Shown here: positions 13,007-63,190 of the stretch, in pieces
Layout of the letters: every line of letters starts with the position of its first letter
Position numbering within the stretch: position 1 is the stretch's first letter
DNA from: Fimbriimonadaceae bacterium
GTDB lineage: Bacteria > Armatimonadota > Fimbriimonadia > Fimbriimonadales > Fimbriimonadaceae
DNA: 64,000 nucleotides
Assembly: GCA_022843485.1 (NCBI GenBank)
Contig: JALHNM010000003.1
Span: 62,001-126,000 of the forward strand
Direction: 5' to 3'
Made by a program: the position numbers and the translations under genes
The notes under the pieces: generated by a model
Seen by the model: the letters and a program-made list of their open reading frames with translations, nothing else
What the model was told of the DNA's origin: nothing
Databases searched by the model: none

Positions 13007-13027
13007 CTTCCCACTACCCCCAACCGA

Positions 13028-13062
13028 AGACGGGCCGGCTCTCACGAGTCGGCCCGTCTTAC
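13028..13062 (+). terminator. Intrinsic terminator after rpsR
   Basis: AGACGGGCCG (13028-13037) pairs exactly with CGGCCCGTCT (13050-13059); the inner CTC/GAG extends the stem. TTACTTT follows. Confidence 0.85.
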
Positions 13063-13158: not shown

Positions 13159-13392
13159 ATGGACGTTGAAAAATGCTTCTACGGCTCGACGACGGTAGGG
13201 GAACGGGGTCAGGTCGTGATCCCCGCTGAGGCCCGCGCCGAACTCGGGATCAAGGCGGGCGACAAGCTCATGGTCATGCGGGACCCGATGGTGAAGGGCA
13301 TCGTCCTCGCCAAGATCGAGGCCTTCCAGACGTTGCTGGAAGACATCAAGGGCAAGCTCGAGCAGGCCCAGAAGCTGGAGGGGGCCGAGTGA
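13159..13392 (+). CDS. AbrB/SpoVT-type DNA-binding regulator
   Basis: A 77-aa protein with a swapped-hairpin AbrB domain (GSTTVGERGQVVIPAEARAE ... IKAGDKLMVM) and a short helical C-terminus (TLLEDIKGKLEQAQKLE). Such proteins bind DNA as dimers and regulate nearby genes or act as antitoxins. Its stop overlaps the GTG of tolC (GTGA), placing it first in the efflux operon, so autoregulation of the pump is a fair inference. TAGGAT (13120-13125) is a plausible -10. A GTG at 13141 is an alternative start. Confidence 0.85.
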   Translation: MDVEKCFYGSTTVGERGQVVIPAEARAELGIKAGDKLMVMRDPMVKGIVLAKIEAFQTLLEDIKGKLEQAQKLEGAE

Positions 13393-14708
13393 CCGCCTGG
13401 GTCGTCCTCGCGGGGCTCGGGCTCTTCGGCGCCGACCCGCTGAGCCTCGACGACGCCCTCCAAATCGCCCGGCAGAACTCCTTCGCCGTTCGGACCGCCC
13501 AGGTCCGGGTCGATAAAGCGAACGACCTCGTCCGGGCTGCCCGTGGCGCCCTCGGTTTCAACTTGAGCGTGAACGCCGCGTACTCGCGGTTCGAAGGGTC
13601 TGTCGGAGGCGGCTCCGGGTCAGGCTCGACCAGCGGGAGCACGACCCGAGAGAACGGGTCTTCGTCCTCCGCCCCGACGGTCAACGACTCGAAGACCGCG
13701 AGCGTCACGCTCTCCCAAGTGTTCGATCTCGGCCGGGGCCTCCGCAGTGCGGTGGAGGCAGCCCGGTTCTCCCTCTCGGCGGAGCAGGCCGGCCTCGACT
13801 CGGCCTCTAGCGACCTCGACCTCGCCGTCCGCAACGCCTATCTCGACGTCCTCCTCACCCGCGCCCTCGTCCGCGTCCAGCGAGACGCGCTCAAGGCCGA
13901 ATCGGCCCGGCTCGAGAAGGCGAGGCTACGCCAGCGGGCGGGCGCGATCCCGCCGTTCGACGTGCTGCGCCTGGAGAACGAGGTCAAGCAGACCGAGCGG
14001 GCTCTCGTCGAGGCCGAAGGCGCGTTCGAGACGAGCAAGCAGGCCCTCAACAACGCCCTCGCCCGCGCCATCGAGACTCCGTTCGAGCCGGTCGAACTCG
14101 CGGCCGTCCCCGCGGTGCCGCCCGACCCGACCCCGCTCGTCGCCATCGCAGTGCAGCGTCGAGGCGAGGCCCGCCAGGCCGAGTTCCAGGTGCGGTCACT
14201 AGGCAAGGTCGCGGACACGAACCGGCGCGGGCTCGACCCGAGCCTCGTCGTCAGCGCGACCCACAACCGCGTCATCGACCCGTTCCCCGGCCAGAAGGAC
14301 AACGGGACGATCGGCACGATCGCCGTGCAGTGGCCCATCTTCGACTCGGGCGTGACCCGGGCACTCGTCCAGTCCGCGCTCCGGGATCAGACCGCGGCCG
14401 AGATCGGCCGCGAGCAGCTCGTCCTGGGGATCGCGCTGGAGGTCCGCTCCGCCCATACCCGCCTCGTCACCGCCCAAAAGTCGCTGGCCGTCGCCGAGGA
14501 CGGCCTGAAACTGGCCCGCGAGGCGCTCCGGCTCGCCGAGCTGCGCTACGACGAAGGAGCGGGCATCCTCATCGACGTGACCCAGGCCCAAGCCGACGTC
14601 ACCGCCGCGGAAGGGGGCGTCGAGAACGCTCGCTCCGAGTACTTCAAGGCCTACGCCGCCCTCCAGCGCGGGGTCGGCTCCGACTCACTGGAATCCCCTG
14701 CCCCATGA
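13389..14708 (+). CDS. TolC-family outer-membrane efflux protein
   Basis: A 439-aa protein from a GTG overlapping the regulator stop. The N-terminus (TAWVVLAGLGLFGA) serves as a short signal sequence, followed by LSLDDALQIARQNSFAVRTA, the typical opening of an outer-membrane efflux protein. Two long alpha-helical halves follow (residues about 130-225 and 330-430, rich in Ala/Glu/Arg heptads) with beta segments in between (SLVVSATHNRV, VQWPIFDSG). A Ser/Gly/Thr-rich insert at residues about 72-95 is unusual. It forms the exit duct for the adaptor and RND pump encoded next; its stop overlaps the adaptor ATG (ATGA). Confidence 0.9.
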   Translation: MTAWVVLAGLGLFGADPLSLDDALQIARQNSFAVRTAQVRVDKANDLVRAARGALGFNLSVNAAYSRFEGSVGGGSGSGSTSGSTTRENGSSSSAPTVNDSKTASVTLSQVFDLGRGLRSAVEAARFSLSAEQAGLDSASSDLDLAVRNAYLDVLLTRALVRVQRDALKAESARLEKARLRQRAGAIPPFDVLRLENEVKQTERALVEAEGAFETSKQALNNALARAIETPFEPVELAAVPAVPPDPTPLVAIAVQRRGEARQAEFQVRSLGKVADTNRRGLDPSLVVSATHNRVIDPFPGQKDNGTIGTIAVQWPIFDSGVTRALVQSALRDQTAAEIGREQLVLGIALEVRSAHTRLVTAQKSLAVAEDGLKLAREALRLAELRYDEGAGILIDVTQAQADVTAAEGGVENARSEYFKAYAALQRGVGSDSLESPAP

Positions 14709-16189
14709 ACTCGATCCGCAAGGCCCCCACGCTGGCCGCTCTCGGCCTCGGCATGCTCGTGCTCGCCTCCATCGGCGGCTGTGTCAACCGGGCTGCCCAA
14801 GAGCAGTCCAAGAAGACCGAGGCTCTCGTCCGGGACACGACCGTGCCCGTTCGGACCGCGAAGGCCACCGCCCGCGACCTCCCGGAAATCGTCGACGTGA
14901 GCGGTGCGATCACGACGTCCGAAGAGGCGGCCGTGGGGCCCGCCGTGCCGGGGCGGCTCATCGCGGTGTACGTGAAGGACGGGGACCAGGTCTCGCCAGG
15001 CCAGGCCATCGCGCAGCAGGAGACCCAGAACTCGTCGGCCCAGCTCCGTCAAGCCCAAGCCCAGGTCGCCTCGGCCAGGTCTGCGCTCGACCAAGCTCGG
15101 ACCGACGCCGTCACCACCCCTCAAAAGACCTCCGCGGGCCTCCGGGCCGCCGAAGCCCGGCTCGCCCAGGCCCGGTCGCAGCTCGAGAAGGCGCAGCGCG
15201 GGGCCCGGGACGAGGAGCGGTCACAGGCCGAGTGGGCCGTCCGCCGGTCGAAGTCTGACCTCGACACGGCGAAGGCCGCGCTCGACCGCGCGAACCGGCT
15301 CTTCGGCGAGGGGGCCATCGCCCTCGTCGAGGTCGAGGCCGCCCAAAACCGGTACGACAACGCGCTCACCGCCTACGAGTCGGCCCTCCAGAGCCAGATG
15401 CTCGTCAACAACGCGACCCGACCGGAAGACCTCGCGTCAGCCCGGCAGGAGGTCCGCGCCGCCGAGGAGGCCGTCCGGATCGCCCGGGCGGACCGCAGCA
15501 ACGACCAACTCGCCCGCGACCGCGTCCGCTCGGCCCAGGCCAACCTCGACGCCGCCCTCCAATCGGTCACCCTTGCCCAGAAGGCGCTTAGCGACGCCAC
15601 CGTGCGATCCCCGTTCGGGGGCCGGGTCTCAGGGCGACCGCTCCAGCCGGGCACCTACGTCGCCCCCGGTGCCGTGATCGCCACGATCGTCGGCGGCGAC
15701 GGCCAGTACTTCGAGGCGAACGTCGCGGAGACGAGCATCCGCCGGATCGAGCCAGGCGCCTCGGTCGACGTCTCCCTCACCGCGCTCCCCGACGTCCGCC
15801 TCACCGGCTCGGTCATCGCGATCAACCCGCAGGCCTCCGGCCCGGGCAGGCTGTTCACGGTCCGGATCGGGTTCACCGAGCGGCTCGCGCAGGTGAAGAG
15901 CGGGATGTTCGCCCGAGGCAAGATCCTGGCCGGTGTCCGCCGAGGTGCGGTCGTCGTGCCGATCGACGCGGTCGTCCGGGACGGGGAGCGGGCCTACCTG
16001 TTCGTCGTCGCGGACGGTGCCGCGGTCCGGCGCGACGTGAAGCTCGGCATCGAGGGCGAAGGCGTCGTCGAAGCGAACGGAGTCAGGCTCGGCGAAGACG
16101 TCGTCGTCTCCGGCCAGACGGGCCTCACCGAGGGCACGAAGGTCCGAATCGAGACCGGCGCCCCCGCCACCGGGCAGAAGGGGGCCTGA
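14705..16189 (+). CDS. RND periplasmic adaptor (HlyD/AcrA family) lipoprotein
   Basis: A 494-aa lipoprotein (signal ending ASIGGCVNR). It has the adaptor order: a barrel-sandwich half-motif (ITTSEEAAVGPAVPGRLIAV), a long alpha-hairpin (residues about 100-300, Ala/Gln/Arg-rich, much longer than AcrA), the second lipoyl half (SPFGGRVSGRPLQPGTYVAP), a beta-barrel and a membrane-proximal C-terminus (VVVPIDAVVRDGERAYLFVV). The long hairpin suggests extended reach toward the TolC partner. It lies between tolC (4-nt overlap) and the pump (3-nt gap). Confidence 0.9.
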   Translation: MNSIRKAPTLAALGLGMLVLASIGGCVNRAAQEQSKKTEALVRDTTVPVRTAKATARDLPEIVDVSGAITTSEEAAVGPAVPGRLIAVYVKDGDQVSPGQAIAQQETQNSSAQLRQAQAQVASARSALDQARTDAVTTPQKTSAGLRAAEARLAQARSQLEKAQRGARDEERSQAEWAVRRSKSDLDTAKAALDRANRLFGEGAIALVEVEAAQNRYDNALTAYESALQSQMLVNNATRPEDLASARQEVRAAEEAVRIARADRSNDQLARDRVRSAQANLDAALQSVTLAQKALSDATVRSPFGGRVSGRPLQPGTYVAPGAVIATIVGGDGQYFEANVAETSIRRIEPGASVDVSLTALPDVRLTGSVIAINPQASGPGRLFTVRIGFTERLAQVKSGMFARGKILAGVRRGAVVVPIDAVVRDGERAYLFVVADGAAVRRDVKLGIEGEGVVEANGVRLGEDVVVSGQTGLTEGTKVRIETGAPATGQKGA

Positions 16190-16192
16190 CGC

Positions 16193-19100
16193 ATGGGATT
16201 GACCAAGCTCTCGATCGTCCGCTCGATCTTCATCTGGATGTGCATGGCCCTCATCGGGCTGTTCGGGTTCATCGCGTACAACAGCATGCGCGTCGAGCTG
16301 AACCCGGACGTCAGCTTCGGCGTGGTCACGATCACGACCGTCTACCCCGGGGCGGGCCCGGACGAGATCAACACCCTCGTCACGCGACCGATCGAGGAGC
16401 AGGTCTCCGGCGTCGCGAACCTGCAAGAGATCATCAGTTCCTCGCAGGAGGGCGTCTCCGCAGTCGTTCTCCAGTTCGAGGTGGGCTCCGATCAGGAAGC
16501 GGCCCTCAACGAGGTCCGCGCCCGGGTGGACCGGGTCCTGAACGAACTCCCCCGGGAGGTCGAGAAGCCCCTCGTCGAGAAGATCGACACGGCGGCCGAT
16601 CCGACGCTCACGATGAGCCTTCGGAGCGACACGCTCAGCAACCGTCAGCTCCGCGACATCGCCGACAACAAGCTCAAGGACCGCTTCGCGCGGATCAAGG
16701 GGGTCGCGAGCGTGAACGTGGCCGGAGGCGAGCAGCGCGAGATCCAGGTGCGACTGCGCCGCGAAGCCCTGGACGTCTACAAGATCGGCATCTCGGACGT
16801 CCAGCGGGCTGTCCAAGCGGCTTCGGTCAACGTCCCCAGTGGGCGGGTCGTGGCCGGGGACGAAGAGTTCACCGTCCGGCTGCTCGGCGAGTGGAAGACC
16901 CCCGAGCAGGTGGGCGAGACGTGGCTGAGCTTCCAAGACCGCAATCAGCCGAACAGCCCGATCAAGTCGGTCCGGCTTAAGGACATCGCGTCGATCGTCG
17001 ACGCGAACGCGGAGCGACGGCAGTACAGCCGGCTCGACGGGGCCGACGCAGTGACCCTCGTCGTCCAGAAGGCCAAGGCCGGCAACGCGGTCGAGATCTC
17101 GAAGGCCATGAGACAGCCGCAAGGCCCAGGCCAGCCCAGCCTCTTGGAGGAACTCGAACAGCAGTACGGCCTCAAGTTCGTCGTCACGCTCGACACCTCG
17201 ACGCAGATCAGCGAGTCGCTCTTCGACCTCCAGTTCGCCATCGCCTTCGGGATCTTCCTCGTGATGGTCACGATGTGGCTCTTCCTGCACAACCTGCGGG
17301 GCACGTTCATCGTCGCGATCTCGATCCCGCTCTGTATCTTCGCCACGTTCATCGTCCTCTGGGTGTTCGGGTTCACGATCAACAACCTCTCGATGCTGGC
17401 CATCTCTCTGGCCATCGGCGTCATGGTCGACGACTCGATCGTCGTCATCGAGAACATCTACCGGCACCTCACCATGGGCGAGTCGCCCGAGGAGGCTGCG
17501 ATCAACGGGCGCGCCGAGATCGGACTCGCCGCCATCGCCATCACCCTCGCCGACGTTGTGGTGTTCATCCCCATCGGGGTGATGGGCGGCGTCGTCGGGC
17601 AGTTCTTCCGCCCGCTCGGCATCGGCTACGCCGTGGCCGTGCTCTTCTCCCTCCTCGTCTCGTTCACTGTGACCCCGATGCTCGCGAGCAAGTGGTACCG
17701 GGCGGGCGAAGACTGGGAGCACCCGAAGGGTCGGTTCGCTCAATGGTTCGAGCGCGGCTGGGGACGAGTGGCCCTCGCCTACCGCTCCATGCTCGGCTGG
17801 GCCCTGGCGCACCGGTGGTTCGTGTTCACGGCCGGCTTCGTCGTCCTGTTCGCCCTGTTCATCTTCATCGGCGGGAGCTTCGCACCGTCAGCCCAGGCCG
17901 CGGTGACGGGTCAGATCGGGCTCGTCGTCTTCTCAACCATCGTCGGGGCGCTCGTGTTCGTCGTCAACCTCTTCCGGCGGTACTTCAAGCCCCAGTTCAT
18001 CCTCTACGGCGCTCTCTTCGGGCTCGTGTTCCCGCTCGCGTCGTTCGTCGGCTACCAGTACCGGGCGTGGAAAGGGGAGGCGGTGTTCAAGTTCGCCTTC
18101 TTCCCGCCTAGCGACGCGGGCACGATCAGCATCCTCGTCGACCTCCCCTCCAGCGCGAGCCTTGCCGCGACGGAACGCGTCGTCCGACAGATCGAAGAGA
18201 CCGTCTCGAAGCACCCCGAGGCCCACTACGTCACCGCGAGCCTCGGTTCGCGGAGCTCCGGCTTCAGCGCCTCCCAGCAGGGCACGAACTACGCCGCGAT
18301 CACGGTCACGCTCTACGAGAAGGCCGCCCTCCTCGACGCGCTGCCCTGGGCCGAGCACGAGGAGAAGCTCCGCTACGTGAGCGACACCCAGGTCGCGGCC
18401 GAAATGCTCGAGCGGGTCGGCAAGATCGCGGGCGCCCGTGTGACAGTGAGTGCTGGCTCGAACTTCGGCTTCGGCGCCCCGATCCAGATGTCGTTCCGGT
18501 CGGACGACCGCGACAAGCTCCTCGCGACCGCCCGCGCTGTCTACGACGGCCTCGCCGCAGGCAAGGTCAAGGGCGTCATCACGCCGGACCTCTCCGCCAA
18601 ACCGGGCAAGCCCGAGCTCCGGGCGATCCCCGACCGGGCCCGGCTCGCCGACGCCGACCTCACCGTCGCCGAGATGGGGGCCGCGCTGCGCGTCATGTAC
18701 GAAGGCGACACCCAGACGAAGTTCCGCGTGGGCGGCCAGGAGTACGACGTCCGCGTCATGCTCGACACGATCGACCGCAACGACCCGGCCGCGCTCGGGA
18801 GCGTCCCGGTCGCCTTCCGCCAGAACCAGCCGATCTACCTCTCCGAAGTCGCCCGCATCGAGCGGGGCCAGGGCGTCGACAAGATCGACCGGCGCGGCCG
18901 CCAAGAAGAGGTCATCGTGAGCGCAGACCTCCTCCCTGGGTTCGCCGCGGGTACCGTCCAGTCCGAGATCGACGCCTGGATGACGGCCGAGGGCCTGATC
19001 CAAGACGGTGTCCGCTACCTGCCGCTCGGTCAGGCGGACGTCCAGGCCCGCGAGTCCGGGTTCCTCCTCGGCGCCCTGGGCCTTGGGTTCCTCCTGGTCT

Positions 19101-19582
19101 ATATGGTGCTCGCCTCGCTCTACAACAACCTGCTCTACCCGTTCATCATCCAGCTCGCGCAGCCCCAGGCCATGGTCGGGGCCATCCTGGCCCTCGTCAT
19201 CACCGACAAGACCCTCAACATCGTCGGTTTCATCGGGATCGTGTCGCTCGTCGGCCTCGTCGGCAAGAACGCCATCCTGCTCGTGGACTACGCCAACACC
19301 CTCCGCGAGCGGGGCGAGGACCGGTTAACGGCGCTGCTCGATTCGGGCCAGACCCGACTGCGGCCGATCATGATGACCACCCTCGCGCTGATCTTCGGCA
19401 CCCTCCCCGTCGCGCTCGCGATCGGCCGGGGGTCGGAGTTCCGGGAGACGATCGGGATCACGATCATCGGCGGAACCATCCTGAGTACCGTCCTCACCCT
19501 CCTCATCATCCCGTGCTCCTACACGATCTTCGACGACGTCTCCGTCGGGTTGGCGCGGCTGCTCCACCGCAAGAAGGCCTAA
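16193..19582 (+). CDS. RND efflux pump, HAE1-like, with extra membrane segments
   Basis: A 1129-aa inner-membrane proton-driven exporter. The N-terminal helix and first porter loop (GFIAYNSMRVELNPDVSFGVV), the TM4 proton-relay Asp pair (GVMVDDSIVVIENIYRHL) and the C-terminal half (GLVGKNAILLVDYANTLRER) are all present. Between the usual TM7 (residues about 540-563) and the second porter loop (FFPPSDAGTISI, about 636) there are about 70 additional residues with two further hydrophobic stretches (GLVVFSTIVGALVFVVNLF and ILYGALFGLVFPLASFVGY), predicting 14 rather than 12 helices. It is the last gene of the AbrB-tolC-adaptor-pump operon. The substrate is unknown. Confidence 0.92.
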   Translation: MGLTKLSIVRSIFIWMCMALIGLFGFIAYNSMRVELNPDVSFGVVTITTVYPGAGPDEINTLVTRPIEEQVSGVANLQEIISSSQEGVSAVVLQFEVGSDQEAALNEVRARVDRVLNELPREVEKPLVEKIDTAADPTLTMSLRSDTLSNRQLRDIADNKLKDRFARIKGVASVNVAGGEQREIQVRLRREALDVYKIGISDVQRAVQAASVNVPSGRVVAGDEEFTVRLLGEWKTPEQVGETWLSFQDRNQPNSPIKSVRLKDIASIVDANAERRQYSRLDGADAVTLVVQKAKAGNAVEISKAMRQPQGPGQPSLLEELEQQYGLKFVVTLDTSTQISESLFDLQFAIAFGIFLVMVTMWLFLHNLRGTFIVAISIPLCIFATFIVLWVFGFTINNLSMLAISLAIGVMVDDSIVVIENIYRHLTMGESPEEAAINGRAEIGLAAIAITLADVVVFIPIGVMGGVVGQFFRPLGIGYAVAVLFSLLVSFTVTPMLASKWYRAGEDWEHPKGRFAQWFERGWGRVALAYRSMLGWALAHRWFVFTAGFVVLFALFIFIGGSFAPSAQAAVTGQIGLVVFSTIVGALVFVVNLFRRYFKPQFILYGALFGLVFPLASFVGYQYRAWKGEAVFKFAFFPPSDAGTISILVDLPSSASLAATERVVRQIEETVSKHPEAHYVTASLGSRSSGFSASQQGTNYAAITVTLYEKAALLDALPWAEHEEKLRYVSDTQVAAEMLERVGKIAGARVTVSAGSNFGFGAPIQMSFRSDDRDKLLATARAVYDGLAAGKVKGVITPDLSAKPGKPELRAIPDRARLADADLTVAEMGAALRVMYEGDTQTKFRVGGQEYDVRVMLDTIDRNDPAALGSVPVAFRQNQPIYLSEVARIERGQGVDKIDRRGRQEEVIVSADLLPGFAAGTVQSEIDAWMTAEGLIQDGVRYLPLGQADVQARESGFLLGALGLGFLLVYMVLASLYNNLLYPFIIQLAQPQAMVGAILALVITDKTLNIVGFIGIVSLVGLVGKNAILLVDYANTLRERGEDRLTALLDSGQTRLRPIMMTTLALIFGTLPVALAIGRGSEFRETIGITIIGGTILSTVLTLLIIPCSYTIFDDVSVGLARLLHRKKA

Positions 19583-19591
19583 ACCCACGGC

Positions 19592-19617
19592 CAGGGCGAC
19601 CGCTAGCGGTCGCCCTG
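19592..19617. repeat. Perfect 26-bp palindrome between pump gene and metal ATPase
   Basis: CAGGGCGACCG (19592-19602) and CGGTCGCCCTG (19607-19617) flank CTAG, so all 26 bases are self-complementary. No T-run follows. It begins 9 bp after the pump stop codon, so it could end that transcript. It also covers the expected -35 position of the promoter at 19630, so it could be an operator for the ATPase. Confidence 0.7.
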
Positions 19618-19629
19618 TGTCCGACCTGC

Positions 19630-19635
19630 TATGCT
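19630..19635 (+). promoter_or_regulatory. -10 box for the metal-ATPase transcript
   Basis: TATGCT sits 6 nt before the ATG at 19642, the same spacing seen before many start codons in this window. Confidence 0.45.
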
Positions 19636-19641
19636 CAGGGT

Positions 19642-19674
19642 ATGGGAGCCAACCGGACTCTCCGGAGGTGCTGA
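19642..19674 (+). CDS. Possible 10-codon leader peptide of the metal ATPase
   Basis: ATG GGA GCC AAC CGG ACT CTC CGG AGG TGC TGA encodes MGANRTLRRC. The ATG is 6 nt behind TATGCT, so it could be read as a leaderless start. The stop codon is 2 nt before the ATPase GTG and the ATPase Shine-Dalgarno (GGAGGTG) lies inside the last codons, a layout suited to translational coupling. Its terminal Cys is noteworthy before a metal pump. Nothing else supports translation. Confidence 0.3.
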   Translation: MGANRTLRRC

Positions 19675-19676
19675 CC

Positions 19677-21614
19677 GTGAACCTGCGGACGGTTCAGACC
19701 GCGCTGACCGCCCTTTGCGGGCTCGCCCTTCTCGGGGCGATGCTCGGCCTCCACCCCACCCTGGCCTACGTGTCCTGCGTCGCTGGGTCGTGGTTCGCCC
19801 TCCGAGCAGCCTGGCGCTCAGTCGCGCGGCGGTCGGTGGACGTGAACGTCCTCATGCTCGTCGCCGCCGTCGGTGCCGTGCTCCTCGGGCAACCGGTCGA
19901 GGCCGCCGTACTCCTCTTCCTCTTCAGCCTCTCGAACACGCTCGAGGAGTACGCGATGTCCCGCACGCGGTCCGCTATCGAAGGGCTGATGAAGCTCCGA
20001 CCGGACGAGGCCATCGTGGTCGAGGGCGACGTCGATGTCCGCCGGCTCGTCCGCGACGTCGTGGTCGGGGACACGGTGCGGGTCCTGCCGTTCGACCAGA
20101 TCCCTCTCGATGGGCGGGTCGTGAGCGGCGAGACCAGCGTCGACCAGGCCGCCATGACCGGGGAGTCCGTCCCTGTCCCGAAGTCCAGCGGCGACCAGGT
20201 GCTCGCCGGGACGCAGAACCAGGATGGGATGATCCTCGTCCAGGTCGAGCGCGCGGCGGGGGACACGACCCTCGAGAAGATCGTCTCGCTCGTCCGCGAC
20301 GCCCAAGAGAACAAGGCGAGCGGCGAACGGGTCAGCCAGTGGTTCGGATCCCGCTACACCCTGTTCGTGATCGGCGCGGCCCTGCTTTCGGTCGCCATCC
20401 GCTTCGCGCTCGGCGAGGACGCCGAGCGGGCCCTCTACGCCTCGCTCACGCTCCTCGTCGCCCTGAGCCCTTGCGCCCTCGTCATCTCCACCCCGGCGAC
20501 CACCCTTTCGGCCCTGGCTTGGGCGGCGCGGAACGGGATGCTCGTCCGAGGCGGCGAGTTCATCGAGGCCGTGGGGCGGGCGGACGCCTTCGCCTTCGAC
20601 AAGACGGGCACCCTCACCCGAGGGCGCCCAGAGCTGGCCGAGGTCTGCGTCTGCCACGGTGTCGCCGCCACCCATGGGGCCCGGCCCGACTGCGACGAGG
20701 CGAACGGGTGCTGGGCGGGCGACGGCCCGATGTCCGACGAGGCGGCGGGAGCCCTCCGACTCGCCGCGGCGGCCGAGCAGTACAGCACCCACCCGATCGC
20801 AGAGGCCGTCGTCCGCGCCGCCCGCGACCGGGGCCTCGACGTACCCGAGGCGACGAGCCAGCGAGTCTTGGCCGGGCTCGGGGTCGAGGCCGAGGTCGAT
20901 GCGTCTACGGTCCGGATCGGCCAACGCCGGTTCTTCGAGGGCGACACCGCGCTTCCCCCCGACTTCGACGCCCACGTGAGTCGCCTGGTGTCCCAAGGGA
21001 TGACGATCGCGGTCATGGAGGCCGGGGGCCGCTACACCGTGCTCGGCCTGCGCGACGAGCCGCGCCCGGAGGCCCGCGCCGTGATCGAAGAGCTCCGACG
21101 GCTCGGGGCCCGGTCGGTCTCGATCCTCACCGGCGACAACCCCCAGACCGCCGCCACCGTCGCCGCCCGTCTGGGCGTCGAGGACGTGCGCGCGGGGCTC
21201 ATGCCCGCCGACAAGGAACAGGCCGTGAGCCGACTCGCCCAGGAGAACAAGGCGCTCGTCTACGTCGGCGACGGCGTGAACGACGCCCCGGGCCTCGCCC
21301 GGGCGCACGTGGGGGTCGCGATGGGCGGGCTAGGGAGCGACGTCGCCCTCAACGCCGCCGACGTGGTCCTCATGCAGGACACCCTCTCGCGCCTGCCCAT
21401 GCTCGTTCGACTCGGCCGCAAGACCAACGCCGTGATCTGGGCGAACCTCGTCTTCGCCGGGCTCGTGATCGGCTGTCTGACCATCGCGACGGTCCTCATC
21501 GACGCCCTGCTCCCGGACGCAAGGCACCTCATCCTGCCCATCGCCGTGGTCGGGCACGAGGGATCGACCGTGCTCGTGATCCTCAACGGCCTGCGGCTCC
21601 TGCGCGGCCCCTAG
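19677..21614 (+). CDS. P1B-4-like heavy-metal-transporting ATPase
   Basis: A 645-aa P-type ATPase. The GTG at 19677 is chosen because GGAGGTG lies 6 nt upstream. The phosphorylation motif is DKTGT (Asp308), with TGES in the actuator domain and GDGVNDAP in the P domain. The TM6 motif is SPC (264-266), not CPC, and the last helix begins with HEGST (627-631). This pair is typical of P1B-4 pumps (CoaT/CtpD/ZosA type) that move Co, Ni, Zn or Fe(II). There is no N-terminal metal-binding domain. Just after DKTGT the ATP-binding domain contains a Cys/His-rich insert (VCVCHGVAATHG, DCDEANGCW; about residues 321-346). Confidence 0.9.
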   Translation: MNLRTVQTALTALCGLALLGAMLGLHPTLAYVSCVAGSWFALRAAWRSVARRSVDVNVLMLVAAVGAVLLGQPVEAAVLLFLFSLSNTLEEYAMSRTRSAIEGLMKLRPDEAIVVEGDVDVRRLVRDVVVGDTVRVLPFDQIPLDGRVVSGETSVDQAAMTGESVPVPKSSGDQVLAGTQNQDGMILVQVERAAGDTTLEKIVSLVRDAQENKASGERVSQWFGSRYTLFVIGAALLSVAIRFALGEDAERALYASLTLLVALSPCALVISTPATTLSALAWAARNGMLVRGGEFIEAVGRADAFAFDKTGTLTRGRPELAEVCVCHGVAATHGARPDCDEANGCWAGDGPMSDEAAGALRLAAAAEQYSTHPIAEAVVRAARDRGLDVPEATSQRVLAGLGVEAEVDASTVRIGQRRFFEGDTALPPDFDAHVSRLVSQGMTIAVMEAGGRYTVLGLRDEPRPEARAVIEELRRLGARSVSILTGDNPQTAATVAARLGVEDVRAGLMPADKEQAVSRLAQENKALVYVGDGVNDAPGLARAHVGVAMGGLGSDVALNAADVVLMQDTLSRLPMLVRLGRKTNAVIWANLVFAGLVIGCLTIATVLIDALLPDARHLILPIAVVGHEGSTVLVILNGLRLLRGP

Positions 21615-33015: not shown

Positions 33016-33028
33016 GCCCAGGTCTGTT

Positions 33029-33054
33029 GGGGGGCACCCGCCTGGGCGCCCCCC
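33029..33054. terminator. Hairpin between convergent genes
   Basis: GGGGGGC (33029-33035) pairs with GCCCCCC (33048-33054), extended inward by CCC/GGG. It can serve the prepilin gene; on the minus strand a G-U pair makes the stem continuous and it would serve transcripts arriving from the left. Confidence 0.6.
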
Positions 33055-33061
33055 GTACGGG

Positions 33062-44730: not shown

Positions 44731-44760
44731 CCCTCCGTTCGACGGGGGTCGAACGGAGGG
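44731..44760. repeat. Perfect 13-bp inverted repeat between AIM24-like and MATE genes
   Basis: CCCTCCGTTCGAC (44731-44743) and GTCGAACGGAGGG (44748-44760) flank GGGG. It lies between two divergent -10 boxes, so it is not a normal 3'-end terminator. Confidence 0.7.
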
Positions 44761-63159: not shown

Positions 63160-63190
63160 AACGGCCCCCCGGATTGGGGGGCCGTTTTCG
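63160..63190 (+). terminator. Intrinsic terminator of thrS
   Basis: AACGGCCCCCC (63160-63170) pairs perfectly with GGGGGGCCGTT (63176-63186) around GGATT and is followed by TTCGTT. The stem could also end the convergent minus-strand gene. Confidence 0.88.

Follow-up and report, generated by a model that had tools for sequence, protein, structure and literature searches.

A proposed terminator hairpin, a candidate -10-only promoter and an accidental-looking mini-ORF ahead of a heavy-metal ATPase gene in a Fimbriimonadaceae genome

In the genome of a Fimbriimonadaceae bacterium (Armatimonadota), the 88 bases running into the start of a heavy-metal ATPase gene would hold two ordinary signals, a terminator and a -10-only promoter, together with an accidental-looking and probably translated mini-ORF, a reading that we consider reasonably probable. 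Every element named in the initial annotation of this DNA (the 26-bp palindrome, TATGCT, the 10-codon ORF, GGAGG and GTG) was found as described. The features are listed below by their positions in the window, which is the whole stretch of 64,000 nucleotides that was analysed.

13389-19582, + strand: TolC-MFP-RND run; the two genes ahead of the RND permease match the TolC and RND_mfp models
16193-19582, + strand: RND efflux permease, final gene of the TolC-MFP-RND run (NF033617, 1.1e-210, under the curated cut-off)
19592-19617, no strand assigned: perfect 26-bp palindrome, proposed terminator without a T-run; as RNA, an 11-bp stem with a CUAG loop, 9 nt past the RND stop
19630-19635, + strand: TATGCT, proposed -10 element of a -10-only promoter (from the sequence, the genome-wide TANNNT profile and orthologues)
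19642-19674, + strand: mini-ORF MGANRTLRRC, putative leaderless uORF, unconserved (from the sequence and genome-wide statistics)
19664-19668, + strand: GGAGG, Shine-Dalgarno-like, 8 nt 5' of the ATPase GTG
19677-21614, + strand: heavy-metal P1B ATPase, P1B-4-like, with SPC and HEGST motifs (TIGR01525, 2.2e-162)

The ATPase opened by GTG 19677 is 645 residues long and carries SPC in the membrane as LVALSPCALV and HEGST as HEGSTVLVILN, motifs that we take to be marks of the P1B-4 (Co/Zn/Fe) subgroup, hence the designation P1B-4-like. The mini-ORF runs from ATG 19642 to TGA 19672-19674 and is followed by CC and the GTG, so that its stop lies 2 nt before the ATPase start and the GGAGG of the ATPase Shine-Dalgarno (SD) sequence falls within it. 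As a separate observation, a Cys-rich insertion of the form [IV]CVC...C...CW follows the phosphorylation motif (past DKTGT) in the ATPases of this family, at about 20610-20790 in the window. From 40 full-length family proteins, five of which did not suit the search pattern, 34 of the 35 scored have at least three Cys in this insertion; outside the family, at least three Cys were found at the same place in 17 of 65 loci, all 17 being of the CPC type. The insertion may possibly be a family-specific cytosolic metal site.

The two halves of the palindrome (CAGGGCGACCGCT and AGCGGTCGCCCTG; 13+13 bp, 19592-19617) are 100% complementary with no spacer. When the 97 nt from 19583 to 19679 were dinucleotide-shuffled 2000 times, no shuffle reached a half-length of 13, the best attaining 9, and the palindrome is beyond chance; the window holds four perfect even palindromes with a half-length of at least 8, the runner-up having a half-length of 8. 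The RNA of 19583-19630 has a folding energy of -28.3 kcal/mol (z -4.68), and the palindrome hairpin, with its 11-bp stem and CTAG loop, obtains a score of 31. It has the character of an intrinsic terminator in being a GC-rich hairpin placed right after a stop codon, starting 9 nt past that of the RND permease, and departs from it in being followed by TGTCC where a T-run would be expected, a lack shared by most gene-end hairpins of the genome. When 135 intergenic gaps were scored, with strong hairpins defined by a score of at least 26, these were found in 9 of the 19 convergent gaps, 10 of the 81 tandem ones and 3 of the 35 divergent ones (shuffles: 0.35, 1.3 and 1.35, respectively), a distribution that is as expected of terminators and not of operators. 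The strong hairpins mostly lie a few tens of bases past a stop codon, and the T-run is absent in most. Since many genes of this genome are followed by GC-rich hairpins of this T-run-less kind, the palindrome is best read, from its sequence and position, as most likely the terminator hairpin of the RND operon. A consensus scan for promoters and terminators found nothing, because it demands a -35 element and a T-run. Counting against the terminator reading, a hairpin scoring at least 30 is missing in 16 of the 20 RND-syntenic orthologues (the window counted), figures that carry no shuffle control; a strong hairpin in the gap between the RND and ATPase genes is present in the window, G030, G062 and G089, with unrelated sequences. 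Further strong intergenic hairpins, mostly without a T-run, occur in the window at about 13027-13060, 33028-33055, 63160-63186 and 44731-44760, the one near 44.7 kb lying in a divergent gap ahead of a TANNNT-N6-GTG start. Such GC-rich palindromes past stop codons call for caution before operators are named.

The promoter profile of the genome was drawn from the window together with 760 kb of the same genome (contig C1:1-760000), genes being called by our own dicodon ORF caller with the start taken from the longest ORF; an earlier 424-kb sample agrees. A gap of exactly 6 nt between TANNNT and the start codon, the modal value, was counted at 33 of 634 first starts as against 14 of 8894 internal start codons, and gaps of 7-12 are also raised at first starts. 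The alignment of 67 TANNNT promoters revealed no -35 consensus, and a G precedes the element in 72% of them. At the present locus, TATGCT-N6-ATG has the form of a -10-adjacent promoter, with the start codon about 6 nt downstream, although that preceding G is missing and its letters at positions 3 and 4 are among the less common ones. These data suggest that -10-only promoters are common in this genome, where they would yield leaderless or near-leaderless mRNAs. The earlier claim that the palindrome covers the expected -35 holds in its geometry, as a spacing of 16-18 nt puts the -35 inside the palindrome; because the aligned promoters of the genome are without a -35 consensus, this overlap carries little weight.

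Among the orthologues, the ATPase was found at E <= 1e-150 in 64 of 85 family genomes, and usable upstream DNA was available from 63 (62 analysed first and G034 added, with G036 left out as its match is without the N-terminus); the relatives compared are at most about 65% identical to the window in this protein. In 24 of these 63, a start codon within the family start zone has TANNNT 5-9 nt ahead of it; control windows of the same 5-nt width gave four each at all five gap classes from 10-14 to 30-34 and nine at gaps 0-4, which suggests that the ATPase itself is often leaderless in the family, judged by sequence. The only other member of the genus among the 85 family genomes searched is G001, in which TAGAAT-N5-ATG is placed 45 nt upstream and adds 15 in-frame codons, giving a protein that begins MAAGCCDTGQRAPESS; in the window, TANNNT-N6-ATG lies 35 nt upstream of the ATPase start and is out of frame. 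A scan for uORFs was positive in three of the 63 orthologues, namely the window (G000), G019 (one codon, M-stop) and G097, where an in-frame ATG behind the same promoter could take the place of the mini-ORF. The closest proteins, those of G083, G082 and G016 (64-65% identical), are preceded by neither mini-ORF nor extension. A leaderless coupled uORF is not a conserved architecture among the 63 orthologues, and the mini-ORF appears to be a single, unconserved case. Its disruption in close relatives that keep the ATPase had been named in advance as evidence against the proposed leader, and the mini-ORF is indeed absent from the relatives examined that keep the gene, the nearest being about 65% identical in protein.

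Leaderless initiation is likely, and the mini-ORF is probably translated if TATGCT is the promoter. The leaderless start put forward in the initial annotation receives indirect backing from the modal gap and from the like promoter in 24 of the 63 orthologous ATPases. A TANNNT promoter with an ATG at the commonest gap renders plausible a leaderless mini-ORF coupled to the SD-led ATPase, and such coupling is geometrically possible given the 2-nt distance from stop to GTG and the SD inside the mini-ORF. The competing explanation that the mini-ORF is a chance frame, the mRNA starting elsewhere or the ATG being unused and the ATPase simply being SD-led from GTG 19677, is a tentative possibility of some standing. 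Shuffles of 19583-19679 contain TANNNT alone in 39% of cases and, out of 5000, TANNNT-N5..7-RTG in 5.2%, in keeping with chance; the stricter TANNNT-N6/7-ATG appears in just 0.86%, and the combination of promoter and mini-ORF start is only moderately unlikely as a coincidence. The lack of conservation also favours a chance frame, as does the genome-wide count of small ORFs that are out of frame, end close to a gene start and lie behind TANNNT at gaps 5-7, which came to 10 against about 6.3 expected (the mean over 31 gaps) and, in a smaller sample, to 3 against 2-6 at control gaps, so that no leaderless-uORF class clearly above chance emerges. Against it stand the modal gap, the same promoter type in orthologues and in the sister species, and the upstream terminator hairpin, which would call for a separate ATPase promoter. 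Another account, in which the mini-ORF derives from a G001-like N-terminal extension whose 5' end was split off by a frame change (mutation or assembly error), is quite improbable. In G001, the leaderless ATG is joined in frame to the ATPase by 15 codons (with CC), and in the window the frame of the ATPase is open well upstream of the GTG, as such an origin would have it; the ATG and ATPase residue 1 are, however, separated by 35 nt in the window and by 45 nt in G001, for which a single one-base indel is insufficient. The leader DNA resembles that of G001 only weakly, its score being matched by 10% of shuffles, and GTG 19677 occupies the start position usual in the family and has a good SD. 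A candidate origin of the mini-ORF by tandem duplication of the ATPase 5' end was rejected, since 19% of shuffles reach its best local score. A second candidate leaderless mini-ORF was observed at C1:144183 on the minus strand (TAAACT-N6-ATG, MEENPFAR), ending beside a possible gene start.

Two regulatory readings had also been offered in the initial annotation. The reading of the palindrome as an operator for a metal-responsive repressor, covering the ATPase promoter, draws on its exact symmetry, its end 12 nt upstream of the -10 element, the nature of the ATPase as a heavy-metal pump and the lack of any other perfect palindrome this long in the window; we nevertheless regard it as very improbable. 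Its position and form fit the terminator hairpins described above, different sequences occupy the same place in relatives, some of which have other hairpins there, and, as far as the copies checked go, the site does not recur at other promoters of the genome. A genome search that allowed up to three mismatches gave 154 matches in the forward direction, as compared with 91 when the pattern was read backwards, among them only one exact copy and one with a single mismatch; the three near copies checked, the 1-mismatch site and two 2-mismatch sites, all lie within open frames. A scan of neighbouring genes revealed no DNA-binding regulator (TolC, MFP, RND, a peptidase C11 protein, S18, an unmatched ORF, MutS2, a cytidine deaminase and a cyclase-domain protein). 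Control of ATPase translation by a regulatory leader peptide that senses Cys or metal is hardly credible. The last codon of the mini-ORF is indeed Cys, the SD lies inside the ORF and a predicted hairpin pairs bases beside it; MGANRTLRRC nonetheless has one Cys in place of the run of Cys codons expected of a Cys attenuator, the leader RNA has no significant fold (z -0.74 over 59 nt, -1.50 over 100 nt), and the peptide is absent from the other orthologues. Any regulation by the mini-ORF is unsupported.

Returning to the combination of terminator, -10-only promoter and mini-ORF, the anatomy of the sequence, the genome-wide promoter and hairpin statistics and the absence of conservation are observed, and from these we infer that termination, transcription start, uORF translation and re-initiation could proceed as follows. 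The palindrome would end transcription of the TolC-MFP-RND operon upstream as a terminator hairpin, being of the GC-rich, T-run-less kind common past genes here, and TATGCT would serve as a -10-only promoter from which the ATPase mRNA starts at or beside A19642. In relatives with a recognisable promoter, the element usually stands right before the ATPase start codon, which should give a leaderless mRNA; in the genus of the window, it appears to sit 35-45 nt farther upstream. In the sister species G001, the presumed leaderless ATG runs in frame into the ATPase, and here it would open the 10-codon ORF with its stop 2 nt before the SD-led GTG. Ribosomes loading at the 5' end may translate the mini-ORF and then start again at the GTG, or ribosomes recruited by the SD may join them. 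The bolder proposal, that a leaderless pump gene has been moved, in one genus, behind a leaderless 10-codon uORF whose termination-reinitiation feeds the SD-led start, is unlikely; if true, the locus would offer a snapshot of a leaderless gene becoming a leadered, translationally coupled one.

In comparison with known systems, the polycysteine leaderless uORF attenuators reportedly described in mycobacteria by Canestrari in 2020 resemble the present locus in having a leaderless short ORF ahead of an operon, and differ from it in that the mini-ORF here has one Cys and no Cys run, and is followed by a metal ATPase in place of a Cys operon. The promoter profile suggests that the high-GC Fimbriimonadaceae can be likened to Deinococcus and mycobacteria in having -10-only promoters right before start codons, which matters for the annotation of start codons and promoters in the little-studied Armatimonadota. 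A literature search of limited depth gave no report of leaderless expression in this phylum, and the term "Armatimon" is absent from the main texts of both PMC12340547, on -10 regions adjacent to ORFs and leaderless expression in Deinococcus-Thermus, and PMC3160421, on leaderless genes in bacteria generally. The systems of these two papers and the present locus are alike in having TANNNT a few nucleotides ahead of the start codon with no requirement for a -35; the locus differs in its phylum and in that a mini-ORF, and not the gene, begins at the first ATG. In mycobacteria, leaderless small ORFs are found upstream of or coupled to annotated genes, and the coupled uORFs of PMC4633059 share with the present locus a leaderless RTG and a short ORF ending at the start of the next gene. 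The mycobacterial arrangement is described there as over-represented and ribosome-profiled, whereas that of the locus is unconserved and not clearly above chance, with stop and start 2 nt apart and without overlap. Set beside these systems, the locus is an ordinary one with a modest evolutionary twist.
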